64,000 nucleotides of DNA from Dehalogenimonas sp. THU2 (GCF_039749495.1 NZ_JBDLLU010000013.1:1-64000), one strand, 5' to 3'. Positions 1-12,070 are shown, counted from the first letter of the stretch. Program-made: numbers and translations. The notes: a model not told the origin generated them from the sequence alone.

Positions 1-2592
1 GGCGTAAGCCGAGATCGGGGTGGTGGCCTTGACGGCGGTGCTGAAGTCAGCCTTGGTGTCAACCCAGACTTCGTAGGAGACGGCACCGGGGACGTCAGCC
101 CAGTCAAACGTCGGTTTGACCGGTACATTGGTGGCGCCAGCAGCCGGGGCCAGATTCATCGCCGGGGTGGGGGTACCCACCACGGTAGTGAAGGAAGAAG
201 TGCCCATGAAGCTACCAACAGTACCAGAGTCAGCAGTAGCCCAGACACTGACGAAGTAGGTGGTGTCGGCGGCCAGACCGGTCAGGTTTGCTGTGGTTGC
301 GGTGGTGGTGGTGCCAAACTTGAAGGCTGCAGCAGCATCGCTCTGCTTAGCTACTTTGGTGGTATCCACTGCCCAAACATAACCAGTAGCATTGGTCATG
401 GCATCCCAGGAGATCGTCGCGGTATTGGTGGTGGTGACGATGCCCAGGAAGACCGAGGTGGTGGACACGATGTTGGAAGTAGCGATACCGGTGACACCCT
501 TGGCCAGGGTATCGGTGTAGTTGTAGATCTTGCCACCATCGGTAGCCCAGATCATGTTGCCATCGGCAACAACAGTTACAAACAGTTGATCAACCTGAGC
601 GGGGGCATTGGTGGTGGACAGGGAGCCAGCATCAGCGGTTCCCAGTTTACCGAGGACACGCTCAACAGTAGCAGAACCACTGTCGCCAGCGTAAACAACA
701 CCGTTGCCTTCATCGGCATTGCCGGCGCCGGGAGCGGTGACTACACCGGTAGCGGCGGTGGTCAGAGTTGCGATAGCGGTAGTGCCGCGATACAGGCTGG
801 TGCCGGCGGCAATGAAGAAGTTGCTGGAGGTTGCATAGTCATTAGCCGGGGCGATGAAAGCCGCTGCCGCTGAATTGGTGATACCGGCAGTGCCAGTAAC
901 AGCAGTCCAAGTGGCGCCACCGTCAGTAGATTTGGCGGCTTTGACAAGAGTTGCGTTGACAGCAACAGCAAACAGGTCACCATTGGCGGCAGCCTGAATG
1001 TCGGTGACGGTATAACCGGCAGCAAAGATAACAGCCTCGGTCCAGAAGAAAGCACTGGTGTTGACCATGATCTTGCCGGCATTATCGCCAACAACTACGG
1101 TGGAGTTATTCAACGGCAGGAAGGAGTAAACGGGATTGGCAATTCCATCAAAGCTGCCGGGGGCGGTGGTCATGGCAGCAAATTTGTTGGCACTGTTGGT
1201 GGAAACCTGGATAGCCGCGGCAGAGCCAGCGACGGCATAGAAAACCGTTTTGTCGGTGGCATAGTTCGGGGATACTTTAAGAATAGTAGCCGTATCCATA
1301 CCAGTGGCTACACGTTCCCAAGTAGCACCGAAGTAGCGCCAAAGACTGCCACTGTTGGAGATCATGAACATATCACCATTGGCGGCGATGGCCAATTCGG
1401 GAATGTCCGTCAGGGTGTCATTGATAAGGCTCCACTGATTGAATACAGTAGCACCGTCAATGCTGACATTGAAAGCACCAGTGGCACCCACGTTCAGGAC
1501 ATATGCCACACCATTGGTAGCAAAGTCTTTGTCAAACAACACAAAGGCCGTGTTGGCGACAAATGAACGAAGGGTTACGGCAGAGAAAGAGAAGCCAGAG
1601 TTGGTGCTCTTGTTGACGGTACCCGCGGAAGTGCCGACCATAATCTTGGCAGTACCGGAGTTGAAAGCGCCGTCAACATCGATATTGTTGGAGGTAACGG
1701 TTGCGTCAATGCGCAGAGGAGTGGTACCGATTACGCGGTAAACACCACCATCAGCGGCATCGGCATCAGCAACAGCAACAAAGTAGATGGGGCTGGTGAC
1801 GACATTAAAGTCAGTGGGGAAGGCGATGTCAGCAGCAGACGGAACGGCCGCTGCAGCACCGAGTGTTACATCAGCAAGAGCCGCGCCCCAGGCGCCGCCA
1901 TTGACGTTGACACGAACCACAGTGGTTCCGCCAGAGACACCGGCAGCAACCACGGTGCGGTCAGTAGCAAAGGAAGGAGCCATGGAGAGAGTCAAAACCG
2001 GCATACCAAAGGTGGTGGTACCGACCGGGTTGAGGTTGTTGAAAACATCGTTGGCATCCCAGAAATAAACGCCAGCGGTCATAACCCCTAAACCATCAGT
2101 ACCAATTACAGCGATGTAGCGGCCACCAAACATGGCAACATCAAGCGCGGTAATGGCATCACCGACGGGGACACCCACGATAGTGGTAAAGGTAACGCCA
2201 CCATCCATGGATTTGTAGAGAGTGGAGGCGGTGGCCAGGAAGACTACATTAGCTTCGGTGGCGGAGGGCACGATAGCAACCGCAGCAGCAGTCCAAGCAG
2301 CAGTGGTAATAGACTTCCAAGTGCGGCCACCATCGGTGGACTTAAGCAAATTGTAAGTCGGTCCCGCTGTATCGGTGACGGAAGCATAGAGAGCCCCGTC
2401 AACCGGTGACTGAGCAAATGCGTTTGCATTGTCAAAAGTCGTTTCCAGTACCATACCGGTACCAGTGGCGGGTACTTTAAAGTTATCCCACGCCTGGGTT
2501 TTGGCGCTAACCGGCAGAGCAGTGCTAACCAGCATGCCGCTCAGCAGCGCCGCGGTCAGCAGCACACTAAAGAATTTATTTAACTTTTTCAT
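1..2592 (-). CDS. Large secreted surface protein with Asp-box repeats and fibronectin-III domains (3' end cut by window)
   Basis: The frame is open from an ATG at 2592 to base 1 (864 codons, no stop), so the C-terminus lies outside the window. It starts MKKLNKFF with a hydrophobic core ending LPVSA, a clear signal peptide cleaved near residue 30. Asp-box (BNR) motifs of the form S-x-D-G-G-x-T-W/F occur near residues 86, 128 and 556, which suggests a sialidase-like beta-propeller scaffold. From about residue 715 the sequence turns fibronectin-III-like (ATISWDAM, then NLTGLAADTTYFVSVWA), and a second such domain begins near 815. It is Ala/Thr/Val rich with no visible catalytic residues. An S-layer or cell-surface role is inference, supported by the neighbouring secreted proteins. 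Confidence 0.8.
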   Translation of the reverse strand, partial: MKKLNKFFSVLLTAALLSGMLVSTALPVSAKTQAWDNFKVPATGTGMVLETTFDNANAFAQSPVDGALYASVTDTAGPTYNLLKSTDGGRTWKSITTAAWTAAAVAIVPSATEANVVFLATASTLYKSMDGGVTFTTIVGVPVGDAITALDVAMFGGRYIAVIGTDGLGVMTAGVYFWDANDVFNNLNPVGTTTFGMPVLTLSMAPSFATDRTVVAAGVSGGTTVVRVNVNGGAWGAALADVTLGAAAAVPSAADIAFPTDFNVVTSPIYFVAVADADAADGGVYRVIGTTPLRIDATVTSNNIDVDGAFNSGTAKIMVGTSAGTVNKSTNSGFSFSAVTLRSFVANTAFVLFDKDFATNGVAYVLNVGATGAFNVSIDGATVFNQWSLINDTLTDIPELAIAANGDMFMISNSGSLWRYFGATWERVATGMDTATILKVSPNYATDKTVFYAVAGSAAAIQVSTNSANKFAAMTTAPGSFDGIANPVYSFLPLNNSTVVVGDNAGKIMVNTSAFFWTEAVIFAAGYTVTDIQAAANGDLFAVAVNATLVKAAKSTDGGATWTAVTGTAGITNSAAAAFIAPANDYATSSNFFIAAGTSLYRGTTAIATLTTAATGVVTAPGAGNADEGNGVVYAGDSGSATVERVLGKLGTADAGSLSTTNAPAQVDQLFVTVVADGNMIWATDGGKIYNYTDTLAKGVTGIATSNIVSTTSVFLGIVTTTNTATISWDAMTNATGYVWAVDTTKVAKQSDAAAAFKFGTTTTATTANLTGLAADTTYFVSVWATADSGTVGSFMGTSSFTTVVGTPTPAMNLAPAAGATNVPVKPTFDWADVPGAVSYEVWVDTKADFSTAVKATTPISAYA

Positions 2593-2866: not shown

Positions 2867-3171
2867 TAGGTAAACTTCCTCTATTTTGGAGTACCCCGAC
2901 CCTGTAAAAACAATCACGCACGCGTCATACGATTGTTATAACGGTACGGAAGGGTGGAATGTTAGGATGTGAGTTTTTTATGTCGAGTTGGTAGTTGGCA
3001 GTGGAGCGAGGGGACTGAGCCGAAATCCCTCTTAGTCTCTCCTTCGACTTCGCTCAGGACAGGCTCTTTACAAAAGGGAGAAACGTAAACAAATTGCTAC
3101 GGCACCTGGGGCTTCGCAATGACGAAGGGAGGAACACGGGTGGCGACGGTGATAAACATCAATATAAAGGG

Positions 3172-3201
3172 AAGGCGCTCCGGGTGACCCCGGAGCGCCT
3201 T
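3172..3201 (-). terminator. Rho-independent terminator of the gene ending at 3229
   Basis: A perfect 13-bp stem (AAGGCGCTCCGGG with its complement) and a 4-nt loop lie 28 bp past the stop codon. The T tail is weak. Confidence 0.7.
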
Positions 3202-3228
3202 TGCCATGTAGGTGGAAAACCCCAGACG

Positions 3229-4128
3229 CTATCTGGGCCGCTCTTCCCCGGCACCGGCATCGACAACAACGTGGCTGCCGTCAACATCGACAATAGACCA
3301 AGCATCGTCGCCGCCGAAGGCGTTGGAGATGGCGAAGGAATAAATGTTGGTAGGATCCTGAATGACCAGCACGGCAAGGCCGAAGCTGGAACCGGAAACA
3401 CCGTAATCTACGAATACACCGGGGGCCAGCGAGCTTGATTCACTGCCGAGCTGAGTGGGGATAAATGATTCTGTGGACTCTCCTACGGCAATACTGGCCA
3501 CGGCATGGGCATCACTGCATTTGCCATCAGCGGTGGCCCAGGCCCAGGAGGACAGATTGCCGCTGACACCGGTGAGGATGGCGTTAGCGTCAGCCTCAGC
3601 GTAAGCACCGTTGGAAGCGAAAGCCTCGCTCTTGGCCGTGACCGCGCCGGAGGCGCCTTCCCGCAGCTTGGCAAAGGAATCAGCCTCGGCTTCACCGTTA
3701 TCGGAAGCATCAGCCAGAGCGGTAGCGTCAGCGGTGCCGTTGCTGCCTAAAATGATCCAGGCGAAGGCGGTGGCATCAGCGTAGCCAGTGTCAGCGTTAG
3801 CCTCAGCATCCGCGTTGGCAGTGCCGGAAGATTCCCAGCCGATGAAAGAACTTGTGTAGGAATGCGCCGAGCCGCTATTAGAGGTACTGGAGCTGGCAGC
3901 GTTGGCAGTACCGGAGCTGGTTTCACCCACCAGCGCGCCGGCACGAGCCCAGGCGCCGTTTTCAGAGTCAGTCTCGGTCACCCAGTCATCACTGGTGCCT
4001 GTGGAAGCGTTGGCCGAAGCGCTGCCGGGGCCGCTGGGCGCGCCTGCCAGTACGCCGAGGGTCAGCACGAAAGTTGCCGCCAGGGCAGCCATCAATGAAA
4101 GAACCAGAGACAGGCTTTTCCTTTTCAT
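3229..4128 (-). CDS. Secreted Ala-rich repeat protein, paralog 1 of 6
   Basis: The 299-aa product starts MKRKSLSLVL with a signal peptide ending near LAGA. The middle (about 40-215) is low complexity, dominated by alternating A-x-A-x-A runs with S, D, E, T and short G-N/G-S turns, a pattern expected for stacked beta-strands. The last 65 residues form a conserved module: PGVFVDY, then GLAVLVI, QDPTNIYSFAISN and VDGSHV. The same module ends five neighbouring genes. One cysteine is present. It is monocistronic, with its own promoter and terminator. I recognise no named family. Secretion is well supported; function is unknown, and a surface fibre or matrix role is a guess. Confidence 0.8.
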   Translation of the reverse strand: MKRKSLSLVLSLMAALAATFVLTLGVLAGAPSGPGSASANASTGTSDDWVTETDSENGAWARAGALVGETSSGTANAASSSTSNSGSAHSYTSSFIGWESSGTANADAEANADTGYADATAFAWIILGSNGTADATALADASDNGEAEADSFAKLREGASGAVTAKSEAFASNGAYAEADANAILTGVSGNLSSWAWATADGKCSDAHAVASIAVGESTESFIPTQLGSESSSLAPGVFVDYGVSGSSFGLAVLVIQDPTNIYSFAISNAFGGDDAWSIVDVDGSHVVVDAGAGEERPR

Positions 4129-4159
4129 ACATTTTTCCTCTCAATTTAAGGTACGTTTA

Positions 4160-4188
4160 AGCATAAAGCCCGGCCAAACGATTGTCAA
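4160..4188 (-). promoter_or_regulatory. Promoter of paralog 1
   Basis: On the minus strand TTGACA, a 17-bp spacer and TATGCT lie just upstream of the ATG at 4128. The -35 sits inside CCTATTGACAATC, which is repeated before the genes at 7920 and 8738. Confidence 0.75.
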
Positions 4189-4202
4189 TAGGTTTCAGGA
4201 AT

Positions 4203-4239
4203 AAAAAAGGCCCCCGGTCAAAACCTGGGGGCCTTTTTC
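4203..4239. terminator. Terminator after paralog 2
   Basis: A 12-bp stem (AAAAAGGCCCCC with its complement) and an 11-nt loop, with T runs on both sides, lie 23 bp past the stop at 4262. The hairpin also sits upstream of the paralog 1 promoter and so insulates it. Confidence 0.8.
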
Positions 4240-4261
4240 AAGATGGGTTTAGGTTAGTATT

Positions 4262-5176
4262 TTATTTTCGTTCGTCTATATCTACGCCAACAAATACACT
4301 CTGGCCGTAAACTTTGGCCAAAACTTCCGTATCCAAGTCAACGGAATTGGACACGGCGATAGCGTAAATATTCGTCGGGTCCAGCACCGCTACGATAGCG
4401 ATACCGTAATTGCCGCCCTGGACATCATAATCGAAATACACACCGGGAGACAGCGCATAGTTATAAACGATGCCATTGGTCATATCAAGACCGGGGTATT
4501 TTATCTCCGCGCGGCCATCCGCCCAGGCGTCCTCACCTGATGAAGTGACCCAGGTCCAGGCGGTAAGGTTACCGCTGAGTTCCGACAGCGTGATCTCAGC
4601 ATCAGTGTAGGCATAAGCTCCATTGGAAGCAAAGGAGTTGCCGATGGATGTAAGATTGCCGGAGGCCCCGTGTTCAAGATAAGCGGAATTATCTGACTGG
4701 GCGTCGGATCCGACGCCGGTGGCAACGGCATTCGATTCTACGAAAGTGGTGCCCGAACTGCCGGAGCGGATCTGAGAATTAGCATTGGCGTATGCGTGAG
4801 TGTCATCTCCGATAGCGCTCGCGTCAGCATCGGCTAAGGCGGTACCCGCGCTATTCTCCAAAACGTACGCGGAGGTGCTGGCTTGCGCTGAACCGTCGCC
4901 AGTCGTTACGGCATGGGATTTAGCAGTAGCAGTGCCGGAACTACTGTCTGGAAGAACTGTACCGGGCGGAGGATCGGTGGCACCGACTCCAACCCGGGCA
5001 CCGATCTGAGCTCCCCCATCATTGTCCCAGATGGATTCCGCATCACCGGTAGTAACAGTGGAGTCAGCCGTTATATCACCCGGGACTAAAATAACAGCCA
5101 ACACACCGGTACTCATAGCTAAAGCCGACAGCAACGCGACAACAACGGCCACGATGGTTATGATCGGTTTCTTCAT
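4262..5176 (-). CDS. Secreted Ala-rich repeat protein, paralog 2 of 6
   Basis: The 304-aa product is read from the ATG at 5176 (MKKPIITIV), which has AGAAAGG 11 bases upstream. An in-frame start at 5230 would put 18 non-signal residues in front of the hydrophobic segment. The signal peptide ends near GVLA. The body is a run of alternating Ala with T, D, S and N, containing blocks such as ATAKSHAV and AYANANSQI. The C-terminal module (LSPGVYFDYDV, GIAIVAVLDPTNIYAIAVSN) aligns closely with paralog 1, including the DPTNIY core. No cysteine is visible and no named domain is recognised. Confidence 0.8.
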   Translation of the reverse strand: MKKPIITIVAVVVALLSALAMSTGVLAVILVPGDITADSTVTTGDAESIWDNDGGAQIGARVGVGATDPPPGTVLPDSSSGTATAKSHAVTTGDGSAQASTSAYVLENSAGTALADADASAIGDDTHAYANANSQIRSGSSGTTFVESNAVATGVGSDAQSDNSAYLEHGASGNLTSIGNSFASNGAYAYTDAEITLSELSGNLTAWTWVTSSGEDAWADGRAEIKYPGLDMTNGIVYNYALSPGVYFDYDVQGGNYGIAIVAVLDPTNIYAIAVSNSVDLDTEVLAKVYGQSVFVGVDIDERK

Positions 5177-5211
5177 CAGTAACATTACCTTTCTGTGTAA
5201 TTCAGTTTCAT

Positions 5212-5240
5212 AGAATAGGCAACAAAGCAATAAAAGTCAA
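5212..5240 (-). promoter_or_regulatory. Promoter of paralog 2
   Basis: TTGACT, a 17-bp spacer and TATTCT on the minus strand; the -35 again follows CCTA (CCTATTGACT). Confidence 0.7.
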
Positions 5241-5257
5241 TAGGTCAGGATAAAATA

Positions 5258-5286
5258 AAAGCCGCCGGTGAATCACCGGCGGCTTT
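5258..5286 (-). terminator. Terminator of paralog 3
   Basis: A perfect 13-bp stem (AAAGCCGCCGGTG and its complement) with a 3-nt loop; on the minus strand it is followed by TTTTATTTTATC. It lies 19 bp past the stop codon at 5306. Confidence 0.85.
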
Positions 5287-5305
5287 GAGATACGACCAGT
5301 CAGGT

Positions 5306-6535
5306 TTAACCGATACCGAAACCAGGAACATCATATTCATCAAGGATACCCTGCCCGACCATGGCATCAACCAGAATCTCATCGCCGTTGATAACGGCGA
5401 TTGCCGCGGCGTCGCCGCCGAGACCGTAGGTAAAGGTCAGCGTGGTGGCTTTATTCAGGGATTCAACATAGACAATAGCAAAAGCGAATCCTTCGGCGCC
5501 GCCAGCTACATCAACAAATACCCCCGGTTGATAGACGGAGACAGCCGGGCTGAAACTGATGTCCCCGTAAAAAAATTCCGCCTCCGAACTGTCGGTTCCG
5601 ATGCCCGAAAGCCCGAGGGATTCCCCTCCGCCATCAGCCATGGCAAAACCGTGGGTATTGAATTCACCACTCATCCCTTCCGGCAAGATGCCGACGACGG
5701 AAATAACCCCAGCCCGGCTGTTATTATCAGCGGTGGACCAGCTGTTGGCCGAGGCGATATTGCCCGGTCCGTAATTTCCGACAAGCGCCTGGGTGATGGA
5801 GCCGGCCCAACTTCCATTATTAGCCACAGCGGAGGCTTCCGCGTAAGCGCTGCCTTCTCCTTCCATAATACCCGCCATGACCATGTTGCCGGCGCTGCTG
5901 TTATTGGTAGCGGTGGCATCAGCTACAGCGGTGGCCGTTCCGGCGGCGGTAGAATGAAAGCCGTTCACTACCTGGGGCAGCGAGTCAGGTACGAACATAT
6001 CACCAGCGCCGTTAATTATGGCGGTGGTATAGTTTCCGGCTTGACTGTTACCCGTTGCCGTGGCGGTACTGGTGGCGGTAGCGGTCCCGGTAGCGTAATT
6101 GGTGATTATCGCTTCTGTCTCATTACCGGAATAGCTGTTGTCAATGGCCACGGCGCTACTGACGGCGGTGGCTGTCCCGGTGCTGTTATAGTCAATATCA
6201 GCGTAAGCCTCGTCATCGGCGCGGCTGTTACCGATGGCCTTCGCAGTGGTGATGGCGAAGGCTTGGCCGCTGGAGGAGTCAGTCTCGCTGGTTGAGAAAG
6301 TGAAGGTGGGTGGCGGTGAAGTCTGCCAGGGATTACCGATTTTGGCTTGCGCATAGGCATCGGCACTGCCGGATTCATCATGAATAGCTACTTTAGTGTC
6401 GGGAGTGGTGACTTTTGCGGCAGCCTCCGCATACCCGTCGGTATACACGTCGGCCAGTACCGCGGTCCCCACGCTCAGTAAACCAAAAAGGATCACAACG
6501 ATGGCGGCGGACAAAACTGAATGACGTTTCATCAT
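5306..6535 (-). CDS. Secreted Ala-rich repeat protein, paralog 3 of 6
   Basis: This is the largest member at 409 aa. The ATG at 6535 has AGGAG 7 bases upstream; a second ATG follows immediately at 6532. The signal peptide ends near AVLA-DVY. The body carries many near-repeats of the form TATAxATAxxNSxAGN, about 20-25 residues each, consistent with a solenoid rung. The C-terminal module (YQPGVFVDVAGG, GFAFAIVYV) is more diverged than in the other paralogs and lacks the DPTNIY core. It continues into a short tail, DEYDVPGFGIG. The upstream region is shared divergently with paralog 4. Confidence 0.8.
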   Translation of the reverse strand: MMKRHSVLSAAIVVILFGLLSVGTAVLADVYTDGYAEAAAKVTTPDTKVAIHDESGSADAYAQAKIGNPWQTSPPPTFTFSTSETDSSSGQAFAITTAKAIGNSRADDEAYADIDYNSTGTATAVSSAVAIDNSYSGNETEAIITNYATGTATATSTATATGNSQAGNYTTAIINGAGDMFVPDSLPQVVNGFHSTAAGTATAVADATATNNSSAGNMVMAGIMEGEGSAYAEASAVANNGSWAGSITQALVGNYGPGNIASANSWSTADNNSRAGVISVVGILPEGMSGEFNTHGFAMADGGGESLGLSGIGTDSSEAEFFYGDISFSPAVSVYQPGVFVDVAGGAEGFAFAIVYVESLNKATTLTFTYGLGGDAAAIAVINGDEILVDAMVGQGILDEYDVPGFGIG

Positions 6536-6580
6536 GAATCTACTCCTAAGCATTGATGGTTCGTTTCATTACCGGACAAT

Positions 6581-6609
6581 ATTTTATGCTCATTACTGGA
6601 AGAATACAA
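6581..6609 (-). promoter_or_regulatory. Promoter of paralog 3
   Basis: TTGTAT, a 17-bp spacer and TAAAAT on the minus strand; the -35 is preceded by CTA. Confidence 0.6.
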
Positions 6610-6649
6610 TAGATTAAATGTACCGAACCCGATAACAACCGAAATTGTA

Positions 6650-6679
6650 TTGACATCCCCGCATATAGTCCACTACTAT
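6650..6679 (+). promoter_or_regulatory. Promoter of paralog 4
   Basis: TTGACA, an 18-bp spacer and TACTAT, with a GTATTGACA context close to the shared box. Confidence 0.65.
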
Positions 6680-6722
6680 TCAGTTTGAATTCAAAGAAAG
6701 TATGACAGAAAGGAGAAAACAG

Positions 6723-7784
6723 GTGAAAAACAGAGTGTTCTCAGTATGCGCCGTGACAGCGATACTGACTGCCTTGTTCAGCGCCGGAGCCACGGTTCAC
6801 GCCAATGGGATCGAGGGCGATGTGGCGGGGGCTATAGCCATAGCGAAAGAAGGTCAATCCGTGGCCAGAGCTGACGCGGAGGGCGATGTCTACGCCGAAG
6901 CTATAGCTATCATGGGCGGACTTGTGGAGGACTGCGTCAGAGGCGATCAATCTAAGGCTATAGTCAAGGCAAACGCCTACGCCGAAGCCGGCAATGGCGG
7001 CTGGGCTGAAGTATATATCGGATACTGGAATTTCGGTTATGACCCCAATAGTTATGCCATCCCGAACGGCACAATTGGAGGTTACTATTTTACCGGTAAC
7101 GGACCTTATATCGACAGTTCGTCCAGCGGTACCGTGGACATAAATGGCAATGCCTCCGCCTTCGGCGGCGACGCTTTCGCCAGGGTGGAAGTTGAGAACG
7201 CGGACATCGTGTCTGAGTCTTCCGGCTCCATTTCCATCAACGCTACCGCCGCGGCGGAAGGCGACCATGCCAAAGCCTACATCGAATTGGAAGACGCCAA
7301 TATCTCCCGGAATTCGTCCGGCAGCATTGAAATAGACGCCACCTCCACGGCCACCGGCGCTTATTCCTATGCCAATATTACCGAGGTGGAGATCTGGTTG
7401 GATGACGGCGCTTCCGGCAATATCTACGCCGATATCAGGGCCACCGCCACCAACGGCGGCCGCTCTTACAACGATATCGACGCCGGCATCTCCGGCGGTA
7501 ACGGAAACTACTATATTTACTCCATCGCCAACAGCGACGGCGCGGGTAGTTATGCTGACAGCGATATCAATCTCTATTCCTACGAAGTCCCGGTTGGGGT
7601 TTATTTCGACGTGGACGCCGACGGTAACGCGATGGCCATCGCGCTGCTGATCTCCGACGGCACTAATGTCTGGGCGATTGCCTATACCGATGCCTGGGGC
7701 GGCGGCGGAGCCGCGGCCACGATCAACGGCGGCGACCTGGGCCCGGCGGTCGATGCCGAAGTCGGGGTTGTTCCAGACGTTTAG
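6723..7784 (+). CDS. Secreted Ala-rich repeat protein, paralog 4 of 6 (GTG start)
   Basis: The 353-aa product is read from GTG at 6723. AAAGGAG lies 7 bases before it, and the resulting start (MKNRVFSV, AVTAILTALFSAG) aligns residue for residue with the signal peptides of paralogs 5 and 6 (AITAMLTAMLGAS). An ATG at 6702 has no comparable ribosome-binding site. The body mixes A-x-A runs with about 30-residue units containing SSSGT/SGSI-x-I-x-A-T, which looks like stacked strands with Ser-Gly turns. The C-terminal module is PVGVYFDVD, AMAIALLISDGTNVWAIAYTD. A single Cys pairs with none visible. Function is unknown. Confidence 0.8.
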   Translation: MKNRVFSVCAVTAILTALFSAGATVHANGIEGDVAGAIAIAKEGQSVARADAEGDVYAEAIAIMGGLVEDCVRGDQSKAIVKANAYAEAGNGGWAEVYIGYWNFGYDPNSYAIPNGTIGGYYFTGNGPYIDSSSSGTVDINGNASAFGGDAFARVEVENADIVSESSGSISINATAAAEGDHAKAYIELEDANISRNSSGSIEIDATSTATGAYSYANITEVEIWLDDGASGNIYADIRATATNGGRSYNDIDAGISGGNGNYYIYSIANSDGAGSYADSDINLYSYEVPVGVYFDVDADGNAMAIALLISDGTNVWAIAYTDAWGGGGAAATINGGDLGPAVDAEVGVVPDV

Positions 7785-7808
7785 AGTCCACGGAACGCAA
7801 ATAATCAG

Positions 7809-7845
7809 AAGCGCCGGAAGGGAATATCCCTTCCGGCGCTTTTCT
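7809..7845 (+). terminator. Terminator of paralog 4
   Basis: A perfect 14-bp stem (AAGCGCCGGAAGGG) with an AATAT loop and a T-rich tail. It directly abuts the promoter of paralog 5. Confidence 0.9.
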
Positions 7846-7856
7846 ATTCATACCTA

Positions 7857-7885
7857 TTGACAATCAGTTCCGCCGGTCTGATAAT
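7857..7885 (+). promoter_or_regulatory. Promoter of paralog 5
   Basis: TTGACA, a 17-bp spacer and GATAAT, in the context CCTATTGACAATC and CGCCGGTCT shared with the promoter of paralog 6. Confidence 0.85.
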
Positions 7886-7919
7886 AATATCTCATCAAAC
7901 CAAGCATAAGGAGATCAGG

Positions 7920-8519
7920 ATGAAACGAAAAATATTATCAGGACTGGCGATCACAGCCATGTTGACCGCGATGCTGGGCGCCAGCGGCCTGGTGTACGCC
8001 GACAGCCACGCCGACGCCACAGCCACAGCCGATTCCCAGGGGGCTGGCACATGGGTCTTCGCCTGCCACGATGCCTACGCTGAAGCTTCCGCGAAAACGG
8101 AAACCCAATCATCCGCCAACGTCGATGAAGGTTATACCTACACCGGCACCAACGCTTCCTACGCCTATGCCGAAGCCACTTCCAAGAATGGCGGCAACGC
8201 CCACGCAGATGTATCTGTTTACGTAGGCGACATGCCTTATGAGGGTGAGATCTATGGCTATGCTGTTTCCAATGCCGAAGGATCAGGCAGCCATGCAACC
8301 AGCAATGTAGATATCCATTATGTTATTCCAGCCGGCGCCTGGGTTGATATCGACGCCAATAGTGACGCCTATGCCATCGCGCTGCTTCTGTCCGATGGTT
8401 CCACTGTTTGGGGATTCGCACTCACAGACGCCAGAAACGGCGAGAGTGCCCTGGCAAATGTTCAATCAGGCAAGGGTATGCTTGTTGAGGCTATAATCGG
8501 TGCCGATCTGGAGACTTAG
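7920..8519 (+). CDS. Secreted Ala-rich repeat protein, paralog 5 of 6
   Basis: The 199-aa product is read from ATG 7920, which has AAGGAG 7 bases upstream. The open frame further upstream begins inside the -35 box and is not coding. The signal peptide is MKRKILSGLA through GLVYA-DS. The mature part has about 100 residues of alternating Ala/Tyr/Asp (HADATATA, AYAYAEAT, HADVSVYVG) and one Cys in FACHDAYAEA. The C-terminal module is IPAGAWVDID, AYAIALLLSDGSTVWGFA. It is about 80% identical to the next gene, a recent tandem duplication that includes promoter and terminator. Confidence 0.85.
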   Translation: MKRKILSGLAITAMLTAMLGASGLVYADSHADATATADSQGAGTWVFACHDAYAEASAKTETQSSANVDEGYTYTGTNASYAYAEATSKNGGNAHADVSVYVGDMPYEGEIYGYAVSNAEGSGSHATSNVDIHYVIPAGAWVDIDANSDAYAIALLLSDGSTVWGFALTDARNGESALANVQSGKGMLVEAIIGADLET

Positions 8520-8536
8520 TCTGTCAGAACCAAATC

Positions 8537-8567
8537 AAAAGGGGAGCGATTTTCGCTCCCCTTTTTT
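8537..8567 (+). terminator. Terminator of paralog 5
   Basis: A GGGGAGCGA stem with a 3-nt loop, extended by A4/T6. The stem is identical to that after paralog 6. Confidence 0.9.
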
Positions 8568-8674
8568 CTAATTACGGGGGGCTGCAATCTACGCCGTTAC
8601 ATGGGGAGGCAAGTTGTTTTAGAAGATTAGAGCCGGCATCCTTCAGAATGTCAGCAGCGCTTTGTTTTGACCTA

Positions 8675-8703
8675 TTGACAATCATTCCCGCCGGTCTAAT
8701 AAT
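8675..8703 (+). promoter_or_regulatory. Promoter of paralog 6
   Basis: TTGACA, a 17-bp spacer and AATAAT, with the CCTATTGACAATC and CGCCGGTCT context of the paralog 5 promoter. Confidence 0.8.
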
Positions 8704-8737
8704 ATCATTTTATTGAATGTGCATTAAGGAGATCAAA

Positions 8738-9337
8738 ATGAAACGAAAAGTATTATCAGGGCTGGCGATCACAGCCATGTTGACCGCGATGCTAGGCGCC
8801 AGCGGCCTGGTGTACGCCGACAGCCACGCCGACGCCACAGCCACCGCGAGTTCCGGGGGGGCTGAGACATCGACCTTCGCCTGTCACGATGCCTACGCTG
8901 AAGCTTCCGCGAAAACAGAAACCGAATCATCCGCCAGCGTCGATGATGGTTATTCCGAGACCGGCACCAACGCTTCCTACGCCTACGCCGAGGCCACTTC
9001 CAAGAATGGCGGCTACGCCCACGCAGATGTTTCCGTATATGTAGGTAACTCTCCTTATGAGGGCGAGATCTATGGCTACGCCGTAGCCAACTCCTCCGGA
9101 AGCGAAAGCCACGCTATCAGCAATATAAATATCCAATTTGTGGTACCAGCCGGCGCCTGGATTGATGTTGACTCCAACGGCAACGCTTATGCTATCGCGC
9201 TGCTTTTGTCCGATGGTTCCACCGTTTGGGGATTCGCGATCACAGACGCCAGGAACGGGGACGACGCCCTAGCAAGTATCGATGCGGTTAATGGAATTTC
9301 CGTTGACGCCTCGGTCGGTGAGGAATTAGAGGGTTAG
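8738..9337 (+). CDS. Secreted Ala-rich repeat protein, paralog 6 of 6
   Basis: The 199-aa product is read from ATG 8738 behind AAGGAG. It is nearly identical to paralog 5 in the signal peptide and in the C-terminal module (VPAGAWIDVD, AYAIALLLSDGSTVWGFA). Differences cluster in the loops, for example at residues 30-40, 60-70 and at the tail. The single Cys in ACHDAYAEA is conserved between the two copies. The copies probably act in the same structure; whether they are expressed under different conditions cannot be read from the sequence, since their promoters match. Confidence 0.85.
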   Translation: MKRKVLSGLAITAMLTAMLGASGLVYADSHADATATASSGGAETSTFACHDAYAEASAKTETESSASVDDGYSETGTNASYAYAEATSKNGGYAHADVSVYVGNSPYEGEIYGYAVANSSGSESHAISNINIQFVVPAGAWIDVDSNGNAYAIALLLSDGSTVWGFAITDARNGDDALASIDAVNGISVDASVGEELEG

Positions 9338-9354
9338 TCTATCATAACCAAACT

Positions 9355-9387
9355 AAAAGGGGAGCGAAAATCGCTCCCCTTTTTTTA
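9355..9387. terminator. Shared terminator between convergent genes
   Basis: A GGGGAGCGA stem with an AAA loop, flanked by A and T runs, serves paralog 6 on the plus strand. It overlaps the stop codon of the minus-strand gene ending at 9385. Confidence 0.85.
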
Positions 9388-9888
9388 TTCTATAAAATAC
9401 GGCGATGTATGCAGCGCCAGGATGGCGCCGTTGGTGGTATCCACAAGGTAGACCGTATCACCGGCAACAACATGCGAACCGACGTAGGTGATGTCAGGCT
9501 GAGAAACGTCCACCCAGATTGACCAGATATATCCTTGGGCCAGCGCCAGTTCCTGCAAATCCAGGTGCCGCTGGAGAGAATTTCCTTCAGGGAGTCCGGG
9601 AACCGCCACTGCCAGCCACGCCAACAATGCTTCCCGGCTGGCAAAATGCCGCGGCGGGTAGAGATCCTCCAGGTCGCTGAGTTGTGATCGAAGCTCGGTG
9701 TTCTCATTTTCCGCAGCGGTAAGGCTGGCGTTCAAAGTTGTCACATCATCCCGCAGCGCATCAATGGTACTGGTATTATTCCGCCAGGCGAAGGCCAACA
9801 GGCCGGCGCCGACCAAAGCTAATGCCAACGATACGGCTAAAATAATAGTAATGACGGGTGTTTTTGCCGGGACTGTCGTGTCTGTCAT
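9385..9888 (-). CDS. Membrane-anchored coiled-coil protein of unknown function
   Basis: The 167-aa product has one N-terminal transmembrane segment (about residues 12-35), then a short coiled coil (about 40-72; heptad-like LNASLTAAENENTELRSQL). A folded extracytoplasmic domain of about 95 residues follows, opening FASREALLAWLAV and ending with a VGSHVVAGDTVYLVDTTNG strand region. That domain looks like those of secreted transglutaminase-like proteins, but no catalytic Cys is present. I cannot name it. It is a single gene convergent with paralog 6, with TATAAT at 9909-9914 on its strand just upstream. Confidence 0.7.
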   Translation of the reverse strand: MTDTTVPAKTPVITIILAVSLALALVGAGLLAFAWRNNTSTIDALRDDVTTLNASLTAAENENTELRSQLSDLEDLYPPRHFASREALLAWLAVAVPGLPEGNSLQRHLDLQELALAQGYIWSIWVDVSQPDITYVGSHVVAGDTVYLVDTTNGAILALHTSPYFIE

Positions 9889-10052
9889 TAAATTCTTCCT
9901 TCGCGGTGATTATACCGGCGTGCTCTGACCGGGTATTTTACGGCTTTCAGTATAGAGGATGGGGCGGGGAGGGGTAAAGGTGTTGACAAGCTGCCAGCTT
10001 TACCTCAACAGATCATACATACCCCCAGTGAGCATAGGCAGTTTTACGTATT

Positions 10053-10081
10053 TTGTCCGAACCTGAAATCTGACATATAAT
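10053..10081 (+). promoter_or_regulatory. Promoter upstream of the four-helix membrane protein
   Basis: TTGTCC, a 17-bp spacer and a consensus TATAAT, about 30 bp before the ATG at 10112. Confidence 0.75.
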
Positions 10082-10111
10082 CATGATACCTAAATTATGA
10101 AAGGCGGGTAC

Positions 10112-10609
10112 ATGGAAGAGCGCCGGAACAATCTCCAGACATGGATTGCCATCGCGATTGGAGTCGCGATTATCATTGGCGCAGTCGGAAGTTACGCGAG
10201 ATGGTGGGATCTGGGATATGGTATCGGGTCCTATTCCCTGGCTCACTGGTCAGGCTGGATCAGCGCCGTTTTGATATCCGTCACGGTGCCGTTATTCGTG
10301 ATCCTCAAACGACGGTCAGGGATACCCTATCTTGTTCTGCTGACATCGCACGTTTTTATCAATCTGGTGGCTTTCGGCCTGCTGACGCTTCACTGGGCGC
10401 ACCATCTTGGCCGTGAGTTCAGTCCGGACTGGGGCACTGGTCTGACGATGTTCCTGGTAATTTCAGGGATGGTGCTGACCGGCGTGATTCAGCGTTTCCG
10501 GCTGGTACCCAAGTCACAGGGCAATATGAGGTTCATCCACCGGGGATTGAGCCTATCATTGATCATTATTTTGCCGATTCACGTGTTGCAGAATACCGGG
10601 ATGATTTAA
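10112..10609 (+). CDS. Four-helix His-rich integral membrane protein (possible cytochrome b-like)
   Basis: The 165-aa product is read from ATG 10112, with GAAAGG upstream; the ATG at 10097 sits before that site. Four hydrophobic helices lie at about 10-30, 43-65, 73-95 and 108-130, with a fifth near the C-terminus. Histidines fall in or at the ends of helices: SLAHWSG, TSHVFINL, TLHWAHHLG, FIHRGLS and LPIHVLQ. Paired helix histidines of this kind bind heme in cytochrome b561 and DUF4405-like proteins, so a small diheme membrane redox protein is possible. No CXXCH or partner gene is nearby to confirm it. Confidence 0.7.
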   Translation: MEERRNNLQTWIAIAIGVAIIIGAVGSYARWWDLGYGIGSYSLAHWSGWISAVLISVTVPLFVILKRRSGIPYLVLLTSHVFINLVAFGLLTLHWAHHLGREFSPDWGTGLTMFLVISGMVLTGVIQRFRLVPKSQGNMRFIHRGLSLSLIIILPIHVLQNTGMI

Positions 10610-10626
10610 TTCCTGAGGAGACTCAA

Positions 10627-10661
10627 AAACAGAGGGCGGGCCAGTGGCCCGCCCTCTGTTT
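10627..10661. terminator. Bidirectional terminator between convergent genes
   Basis: A perfect 16-bp stem (AAACAGAGGGCGGGCC) with an AGT loop lies between the membrane-protein gene (+) and rho (-). Confidence 0.85.
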
Positions 10662-10678
10662 GCTTGAACAGGTAGGTG

Positions 10679-12070
10679 TTAAGCCTTCTCCCTGGTCAGG
10701 TTGGTCAGGAATTCGGCGTTGTTCTTGCTGCGTTTTAGTTTGTCCAGGACGCGCTCCGTCACTTCCGCGAAATTGTTGGAATCGTCGGCGATTATGCCGA
10801 CCATGCGGCGCAGGAGCTGGACCTGCTTGAAAGAAGCCTCCGGGATGAGCAGTTCCTCGCGGCGGGTGCCGGAGCGGGGGATATCGATGGCCGGGAAGAC
10901 GCGGCGTTCGGCCAGGCGGCGGTCCAGGTGCAGCTCCATGTTGCCGGTGCCCTTGAACTCCTCATAGATGAGGTCATCCATGCGGGAGCCGGTCTCCACC
11001 AGGCAGGTGGCGATGATGGTCAATGAACCGCCTTCCGCGGTGTTGCGGGCGGCGCCGAAGAACTTCTTGGCCGGATGCAGGGCGACGGGATCCAGGCCGC
11101 CCGAAAGGGTGCGGCCGGAGGGCGGCATAGCCAGGTTGTAGGCGCGGGTGAGGCGGGTGATGCCGTCCAATAGGATGAAAACGTCCTTGCCGCTTTCCAC
11201 CATGCGCTTGGCGCGCTCAAGAGCCAGTTCCGCGACACGGGTCTGGTTCTCCACGGCCTCGTCGAAGGTGGCGGCCATGACCTCTCCCTTGACGGAGCGG
11301 CGCATGTCCGTGACCTCTTCCGGGCGCTCGCCGATGAGGACGACCATCAGGTGGATATCGTTGTAATTGACTGTGGTGGCGTTGGCGATGTTCTTGAGGA
11401 GCATCGTCTTGCCGGCCTTGGGCGGTGAGACGACCATGCCGCGCTGGCCGCGGCCGATGGGGGAAACCAGGTTTATCAGGCGGGTGGAAAGCATGTTGGT
11501 GTCGGTTTCCAGGTTTATCAGGCGGTCGGGGAAGGTGGGCGTCAGCGAGCCGAAGTACGGGCGGCGCTTGGCAGCTTCCGGATTCAGGTCGTTGATGGCT
11601 TCTACCCGCAGCAGGCTGTAATATTTCTCACCCGGCTTGGCGTGGCGCGACTGGCCGATGACCATATCGCCGGTGCGCAGGCCGAAGCGGCGGACCTGGG
11701 ACTGGGAGACATAAATATCTGAAGGCGAGGGCAGCAGCGACGCCTGGCGCAGGAAGCCGTAACCGTCTGGCATGATCTCCAGGATGCCGGAGCAGAAGAT
11801 GTTACCCTGCTGTTCCGTGGAAGCCTGCAAAAGCCGCAGTACGATCTCCTGCTTCTTGGCGCCGGTGACGCCGGTCAGCTTCATGCGCTTAGCCAGATCC
11901 AGAAGATCCTCACGGCTCATGGTTTCAAGCGTCGAAAGGCCGAGCGGAGGTGGGGGGGGTGGGGGCGGAGTTGGCGCCTGGACGAACGCGGGAGCAGGTG
12001 CGAACGCCTGGGGTTGGGCTTCGGCGATAGGCTCCGATTCAGTGGTGTTGTTGGGATCAATTTCGGTCAT
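10679..12070 (-). CDS. rho: Transcription termination factor Rho
   Basis: The 463-aa product is the RNA-dependent ATPase that ends untranslated transcripts. It has a disordered Pro/Ala-rich N-terminus with eight consecutive prolines (about 35-42). This is followed by a Rho_N segment (LSTLETMSREDLLDLAKRMK), a cold-shock-like RNA-binding domain (GYGFLR at about 104), and a RecA-type motor with Walker A PPKAGKT at about 217-223, LIGERPEEV, and the R-loop/Q-loop region around VENQTRVAEL. It is third in the minus-strand order pyrG, transaldolase, rho, starting 39 bp past the transaldolase stop. The long N-terminal insertion is common in high-GC and deep-branching bacteria. Confidence 0.97.
   Translation of the reverse strand: MTEIDPNNTTESEPIAEAQPQAFAPAPAFVQAPTPPPPPPPPLGLSTLETMSREDLLDLAKRMKLTGVTGAKKQEIVLRLLQASTEQQGNIFCSGILEIMPDGYGFLRQASLLPSPSDIYVSQSQVRRFGLRTGDMVIGQSRHAKPGEKYYSLLRVEAINDLNPEAAKRRPYFGSLTPTFPDRLINLETDTNMLSTRLINLVSPIGRGQRGMVVSPPKAGKTMLLKNIANATTVNYNDIHLMVVLIGERPEEVTDMRRSVKGEVMAATFDEAVENQTRVAELALERAKRMVESGKDVFILLDGITRLTRAYNLAMPPSGRTLSGGLDPVALHPAKKFFGAARNTAEGGSLTIIATCLVETGSRMDDLIYEEFKGTGNMELHLDRRLAERRVFPAIDIPRSGTRREELLIPEASFKQVQLLRRMVGIIADDSNNFAEVTERVLDKLKRSKNNAEFLTNLTREKA

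Follow-up and report, generated by a model that had tools for sequence, protein, structure and literature searches.

Dehalogenimonas sp. THU2, a dechlorinating bacterium of groundwater without a cell wall, possesses an array of six open reading frames (ORFs), three on each strand, at positions 3229-9337 of the DNA stretch analysed here (GCF_039749495.1, NZ_JBDLLU010000013.1:1-64000; hereafter the window, i.e. the initial 64 kb of contig 13), and the six encoded proteins probably form part of the cell surface or of a matrix and represent a type not described so far. The view we favour, with a probability of roughly 55%, is that they are lineage-specific, Sec-secreted beta-solenoids with an alanine core, whose end module closes the solenoid and which serve as surface or matrix parts of a wall-less cell. 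Homology, secretion signal, residue alternation, locus and absence of relatives were computed and the fold class was predicted; the inward orientation of the faces, the surface location, the cap role and a structural or adhesive function are what we infer. The genome comprises 1,843,851 bases in 35 contigs and is 99.8% complete, and the congeners used have closed genomes (1.69-2.09 Mb). Genes for peptidoglycan synthesis are missing from Dehalogenimonas genomes (PMC13390414), which agrees with the description of the host in the initial annotation of this DNA as a member of the Chloroflexota without a peptidoglycan wall. The members, whose starts were refined by eye to the K/R-rich beginning of the signal peptide, are the following:

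3229-4128, minus strand: member A, 299 residues, with a signal peptide, a body of about five coils and the C-terminal module at about residues 236-299
4262-5185, minus strand: member B, 307 residues, nearest to A (39% identity)
5306-6535, minus strand: member C, 409 residues, with the longest body and the most divergent C-terminal module
6702-7784, plus strand: member D, 360 residues
7920-8519, plus strand: member E, 199 residues, a tandem duplicate of F (77% amino acid and 84% nucleotide identity)
8738-9337, plus strand: member F, 199 residues

All six ORFs are present as initially described, and each opens with a hydrophobic Sec-type signal peptide, the mean hydropathy over 17 residues being 1.9-2.9 at the N-terminus versus 1.45-1.8 elsewhere. 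Neither a second hydrophobic segment as strong as the signal peptide, nor an LPxTG-like motif, nor a lipobox cysteine at the signal-peptide cleavage region was found in any member, and the net charge of all six is negative (-17 to -33). The bodies had been described as A-x-A-x-A repeats, and this alternation exceeds that of same-composition shuffles throughout: alanine pairs at distance 2 are over-represented in 6/6 members (z 3.2-6.7), adjacent pairs are depleted, and A-x-A-x-A occurs 4-16 times per member against 0.7-1.8 expected (p 0.0005-0.0095).

The bodies vary and are followed by a fixed end module, so that the proposed modular design holds. A profile of this module places its copies as follows:

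3235-3435, minus strand: C-terminal module of A
4265-4459, minus strand: C-terminal module of B
5348-5539, minus strand: C-terminal module of C
7581-7778, plus strand: C-terminal module of D
8319-8513, plus strand: C-terminal module of E
9137-9331, plus strand: C-terminal module of F

In a leave-one-out test, in which a profile built from the modules of five members was searched for the omitted sixth, the omitted module was recovered at expect values (E) of 1e-10 to 2e-22 for 5/6 members and at 4.7e-4 for the most divergent one, C, and in all six cases the omitted member outscored every non-member frame of the window. Because each member is found by the others, the C-terminal modules are, by sequence, truly homologous and form one family. 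Homology among the members even reaches upstream into the last body repeat, and the module, with its aromatic and aspartate positions, is their best-conserved part. The module motif initially given, P-x-G-x-F/W-x-D, needs correction, however: the common module is real, but the literal string is present solely in E and F, and the general form is a glycine followed by [VA]-[FYW]-[VIF]-D.

The statement that the proteins belong to no named family was borne out by the libraries searched, as no significant match of the six members was obtained in Pfam, NCBIfam, PHROGs, PADLOC or the PDB sequences, and the module matched no known domain. Two sub-threshold scores, to CBM_6 in member D (E 0.012, below the Pfam cut-off) and to lactococcin 972 (E 0.036), were taken as chance. 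The module profile found exactly six sites in the genome itself, all within the array, none in 10 other Dehalococcoidaceae genomes, none in 392 other Dehalococcoidia and no credible match in 399 other Chloroflexota. A match in genome G317 (E 3e-4, 34 of 67 module positions) was judged by eye to be due to chance; the ORFs at that locus include no protein of such a make-up. Searches with the full-length profile in the genus and class were in agreement, revealing no relatives, and a single-protein search across 60 relatives returned no distant one. Pattern scans of GTDB r220 and of viral contigs, whose sensitivity is limited to fairly close relatives, gave nothing, and tblastn against phages and plasmids, with one member each, detected no similar sequence. 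Relative to the genome, viral, plasmid and database sets searched, to which the term orphan refers here, the six genes are a lineage-specific orphan family.

The fold was predicted with AlphaFold2 for members A and F, the former with an alignment of the six members. The model of A has a predicted local distance difference test score (pLDDT) of about 86-96 over most of residues 70-210 and a predicted template modelling score of 0.79, and it consists of coils in which pairs of 12- and 10-residue strands recur every 29-32 residues (72-83/87-96, 101-112/116-125, 130-141/146-155 and 160-171/176-185). When these strands are laid on the sequence, one face of the clearest coils reads G-A-A-A-A-A along the 12-residue strand and A-A-A-A-I along the 10-residue strand. 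With a repeat profile of the coils of A, partial coils are detected in four other members (B, C, E and F) and, weakly, in D. In a structural comparison with VIA-align the best neighbour of the A model was SufD (Z 10.4, 201 residues, root mean square deviation 5.0, 8% identity), followed by the UspA1 head (Z 7.6), NeuO (6.1), the HK620 tailspike (4.9) and Awp1 (4.0), with Awp14 also among the neighbours with Z of at least 3.4; we take all of these to be beta-solenoid or beta-roll proteins. With the core beta-helix of SufD/SufB the arrangement alone is shared, these being cytosolic Fe-S assembly proteins of other function. The model of F is all-beta, with pLDDT mostly 87-95 in the C-terminal 90 residues. 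In the two models, the last three strands of the module coincide once the sequences are aligned (262-271/275-283/287-291 in A; 162-172/176-183/188-193 in F, where pLDDT exceeds 90), so that the module has equivalent strands in the two members modelled. Neither of the outcomes initially named as refuting the family, a match of the module to a known domain of established role or predicted structures lacking a common fold, was thus obtained. That the body is a beta-solenoid is, judging from these models, quite likely.

Most members are preceded by promoter-like sites and followed by hairpins:

4160-4188, minus strand: promoter-like site of A, TTGACA-17-TATGCT
5212-5240, minus strand: promoter-like site of B, TTGACT-17-TATTCT (9/12 matches)
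6650-6679, plus strand: promoter-like site of D, TTGACA-18-TACTAT
7857-7885, plus strand: promoter-like site of E, TTGACA-17-GATAAT
8675-8703, plus strand: promoter-like site of F, TTGACA-17-AATAAT
3172-3201, minus strand: terminator-like hairpin after A, 13 pairs
5258-5286, minus strand: terminator-like hairpin after C, 13 pairs
7809-7841, plus strand: hairpin after D, 15 pairs, scored on the minus strand only, just past the stop codon of D and followed by TTCTATT on the plus strand
8537-8565, plus strand: terminator-like hairpin after E, 13 pairs
9355-9383, plus strand: terminator-like hairpin after F, 13 pairs

The sites of A, D, E and F combine a TTGACA -35 box with a good -10 box at a distance of 17-18 bases; in the 8.2 kb scanned, at least 10/12 matches occurred solely at these four and at one position near 10053, and no convincing site was seen for C. 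These consensus matches, together with the hairpins, point to several transcription units, not to an operon.

The array lies beside a gene for a putative surface-layer (S-layer) protein, and the two main features of this locus are:

1-2592, minus strand: secreted repeat protein of the BNR/Asp-box type, truncated at the contig end, a homologue of the putative Dehalococcoidaceae S-layer protein
2869-10685, no strand assigned: insertion holding the array and two other genes, showing no resemblance at the DNA level to the nearest relative's rho/S-layer locus

The BNR/Asp-box protein is treated as the S-layer protein in Dehalococcoides proteomics (PMC6646388), and homology and position make the BNR gene of the window its putative counterpart. 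In Dehalogenimonas and Dehalococcoides, rho is followed, closely or past an insertion, by a gene for a BNR/Asp-box protein of about 1000 residues; the distance is about 0.2-1.5 kb in five Dehalogenimonas relatives and one Dehalococcoides. The BNR protein, also secreted and repetitive and probably sharing with the six members a cell-surface destination, differs from them in its size (about 1000-1200 residues) and in a family-conserved C-terminal transmembrane segment which in relatives ends in RTRRVV, RTRRVA or similar. A sequence relation is not detectable: a search of the genome with the BNR protein returned paralogues and none of the six genes, and Pfam reported no BNR in the six members. 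Similarity to the nearest relative breaks off near position 2868 and is regained near 10686, leaving about 7.8 kb of lineage-specific DNA with the six genes, a 167-residue protein and a membrane protein of 165 residues, for which the best match in the nearest relative is at another site.

In the proposed architecture, each coil of about 29-32 residues would be composed of a 12-residue strand, a turn of 3-4 residues, a 10-residue strand and a short turn. The 12-residue strand would read S-G-T-A-x-A-x-A-x-A in the clearest coils, the 10-residue strand would carry alternating alanines with a larger apolar residue last, and the alanine-bearing faces, which the alternation makes likely to point inward, would form a narrow alanine-packed core beneath an acidic and polar outer face. 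Length would change by coil addition, with the C-terminal module of about 65 residues remaining constant and shutting the open edge of the last coil, either as a cap or as an assembly surface; from the models, the odds that it is an end-cap appear even. Made from separate promoters and lacking an anchor, the six proteins would end up beyond the membrane, either retained within or about the S-layer by non-covalent contacts or released as a matrix. It is the absence of an anchor, the acidity, the variable coil number with a constant end, the secretion, the individual promoters and the S-layer gene as neighbour that argue for a surface or matrix role. A more far-reaching version, in which capped, silk-like alanine-core solenoids born in one Dehalogenimonas lineage and expanded to six co-assemble with the S-layer into a structural coat around a peptidoglycan-free cell, is conceivable but rather doubtful.

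Several points weigh against the favoured view. The models are built on an alignment of six paralogues only, and highly regular repeats can give over-confident solenoid models. The VIA-align comparison of A covered 51 chains, a Z of about 10 for a repeat protein may merely reflect a shared arrangement, and Foldseek gave no significant match of the A model in PDB or BFVD. Member F was less consistent (five models at pLDDT 55-77), with no useful Foldseek match and no solenoid neighbours by structure comparison. Finally, the insertion that brings the array next to the S-layer gene occurs in a single genome, and a shared function need not follow from this position.

The strongest alternative, though an unlikely one, is that the proteins are subunits of functional-amyloid-like fibres, in which the coils of one molecule would continue those of the next in head-to-tail stacks, like those of curli, and the module would be a nucleator or tip instead of a stopper. 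The six members and the curlins CsgA/CsgB are alike in being small secreted paralogues with strand-turn-strand repeats and a predicted two-sheet beta-solenoid; the two-strand coils, the varied length, the missing anchor and a weak BFVD neighbour of the A model in Foldseek named 'Curlin associated' (E 2.7) fit this idea, as does the finding that open-ended solenoids without caps polymerise (PMC10192328). However, the core of the six proteins is rich in alanine, whereas curlin has hydrophobic residues flanked by Gln/Asn ladders with a QX10Q kernel; the coils measure 29-32 instead of about 23 residues, glutamine numbers 1-8 per protein, and the constant end module speaks for a closed end. In all six members, the curlin repeat model gave no Pfam match at E up to 1 and the ladder strings N.A...Q and Q.G..N were absent, and the exporter CsgG (PF03783) was missing from the genome, as expected in a cell without an outer membrane, with control genomes positive. 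Since three tested features of curlin thus fail, the capped solenoid is preferred.

Also improbable is a role as soluble or S-layer-bound adhesins or ligand-binders, with the solenoid as a stalk and the module as the binding domain. The conservation of the module with its aromatic and aspartate positions and the stalk-like variation in body length would suit such proteins, and the CBM_6 score of D hints in the same direction; this score is, however, not only below the cut-off but located in the body rather than in the module.

The locus itself raises the possibility that the genes are cargo of a mobile or hypervariable island, e.g. phage- or competition-related secreted proteins without a structural role. 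They occur in one genome only, at a site which carries unrelated insertions in two relatives and appears to be an insertion hotspot: in the two Dehalogenimonas genomes concerned (L041, 'Ca. D. loeffleri' W, and L042, a genome of 1,686,510 bases) the BNR gene is duplicated and separated from rho by unrelated genes. Against this reading, which we regard as quite improbable, no integrase or transposase was recognised by eye among the ORFs of the insert, phages, plasmids and viral contigs contained nothing similar to the members tried, and the GC content of the six genes, overall and at third codon positions, resembles that of the adjoining BNR gene. Flat beta-solenoid antifreeze proteins such as Rhagium AFP have a tight core of small residues and an alternating pattern like the six members, and a Thr/Ala-alternating strand of C (TATATSTATAT-like) is in their style. 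Ice-binding or another cold-stress function is nevertheless very improbable, as this alternation is absent from the other members, which share no ice-binding face and are bacterial proteins with a C-terminal module, no PDB sequence matched, and relatives of the host are mesophilic groundwater bacteria (PMC4918011).

The tandem duplication behind E and F (84% nucleotide identity over 607 bases) has nonsynonymous (dN) and synonymous (dS) rates of 0.15 and 0.41, and the dN/dS of 0.37 is as under purifying selection. Over the first 100 codons dS amounts to 0.16-0.19, compared with 0.87 for codons 101-150, and the low value at the 5' end may reflect gene conversion.

Further observations concern the surroundings of the array. 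The 167-residue protein (9385-9888, minus strand) has a hydrophobic segment at its N-terminus and probably contains a coiled coil, with weak, diverged matches elsewhere in most Dehalococcoidaceae genomes. As named by eye, the DNA separating rho from the BNR gene encodes an NYN-like protein of 241-258 residues in both L041 and L042 and a transposase-like ORF in L042, and two GIY-YIG-like ORFs lie between the tandem BNR genes of L041. The last 44 residues of the BNR protein at the contig end of the window are 100% identical to the ends of two other contigs (C8:2-133 and C28:2-133), one of which carries a 54-63% identical BNR paralogue; the assembly was probably broken by repeats of S-layer paralogues. 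Positions 2530-2866, which span the BNR gene start and some 270 bases in front of it, show 80-83% identity to two congeners, in which the protein bodies diverge strongly, and read as a leader or promoter of the S-layer gene that has been conserved.

Secreted beta-solenoid surface proteins, the likely fold class here, are a known kind, and what is new is a six-member family for which no sequence relatives were found. Such a repeat-protein family without detectable relatives in the sets searched lends itself to studying the origin of these folds and might supply simple alanine-packed solenoid scaffolds. Envelope building without peptidoglycan in the organohalide-respiring Dehalococcoidia is poorly known beyond one S-layer candidate, and the six proteins encoded beside the gene of this candidate provide specific targets for surface proteomics.

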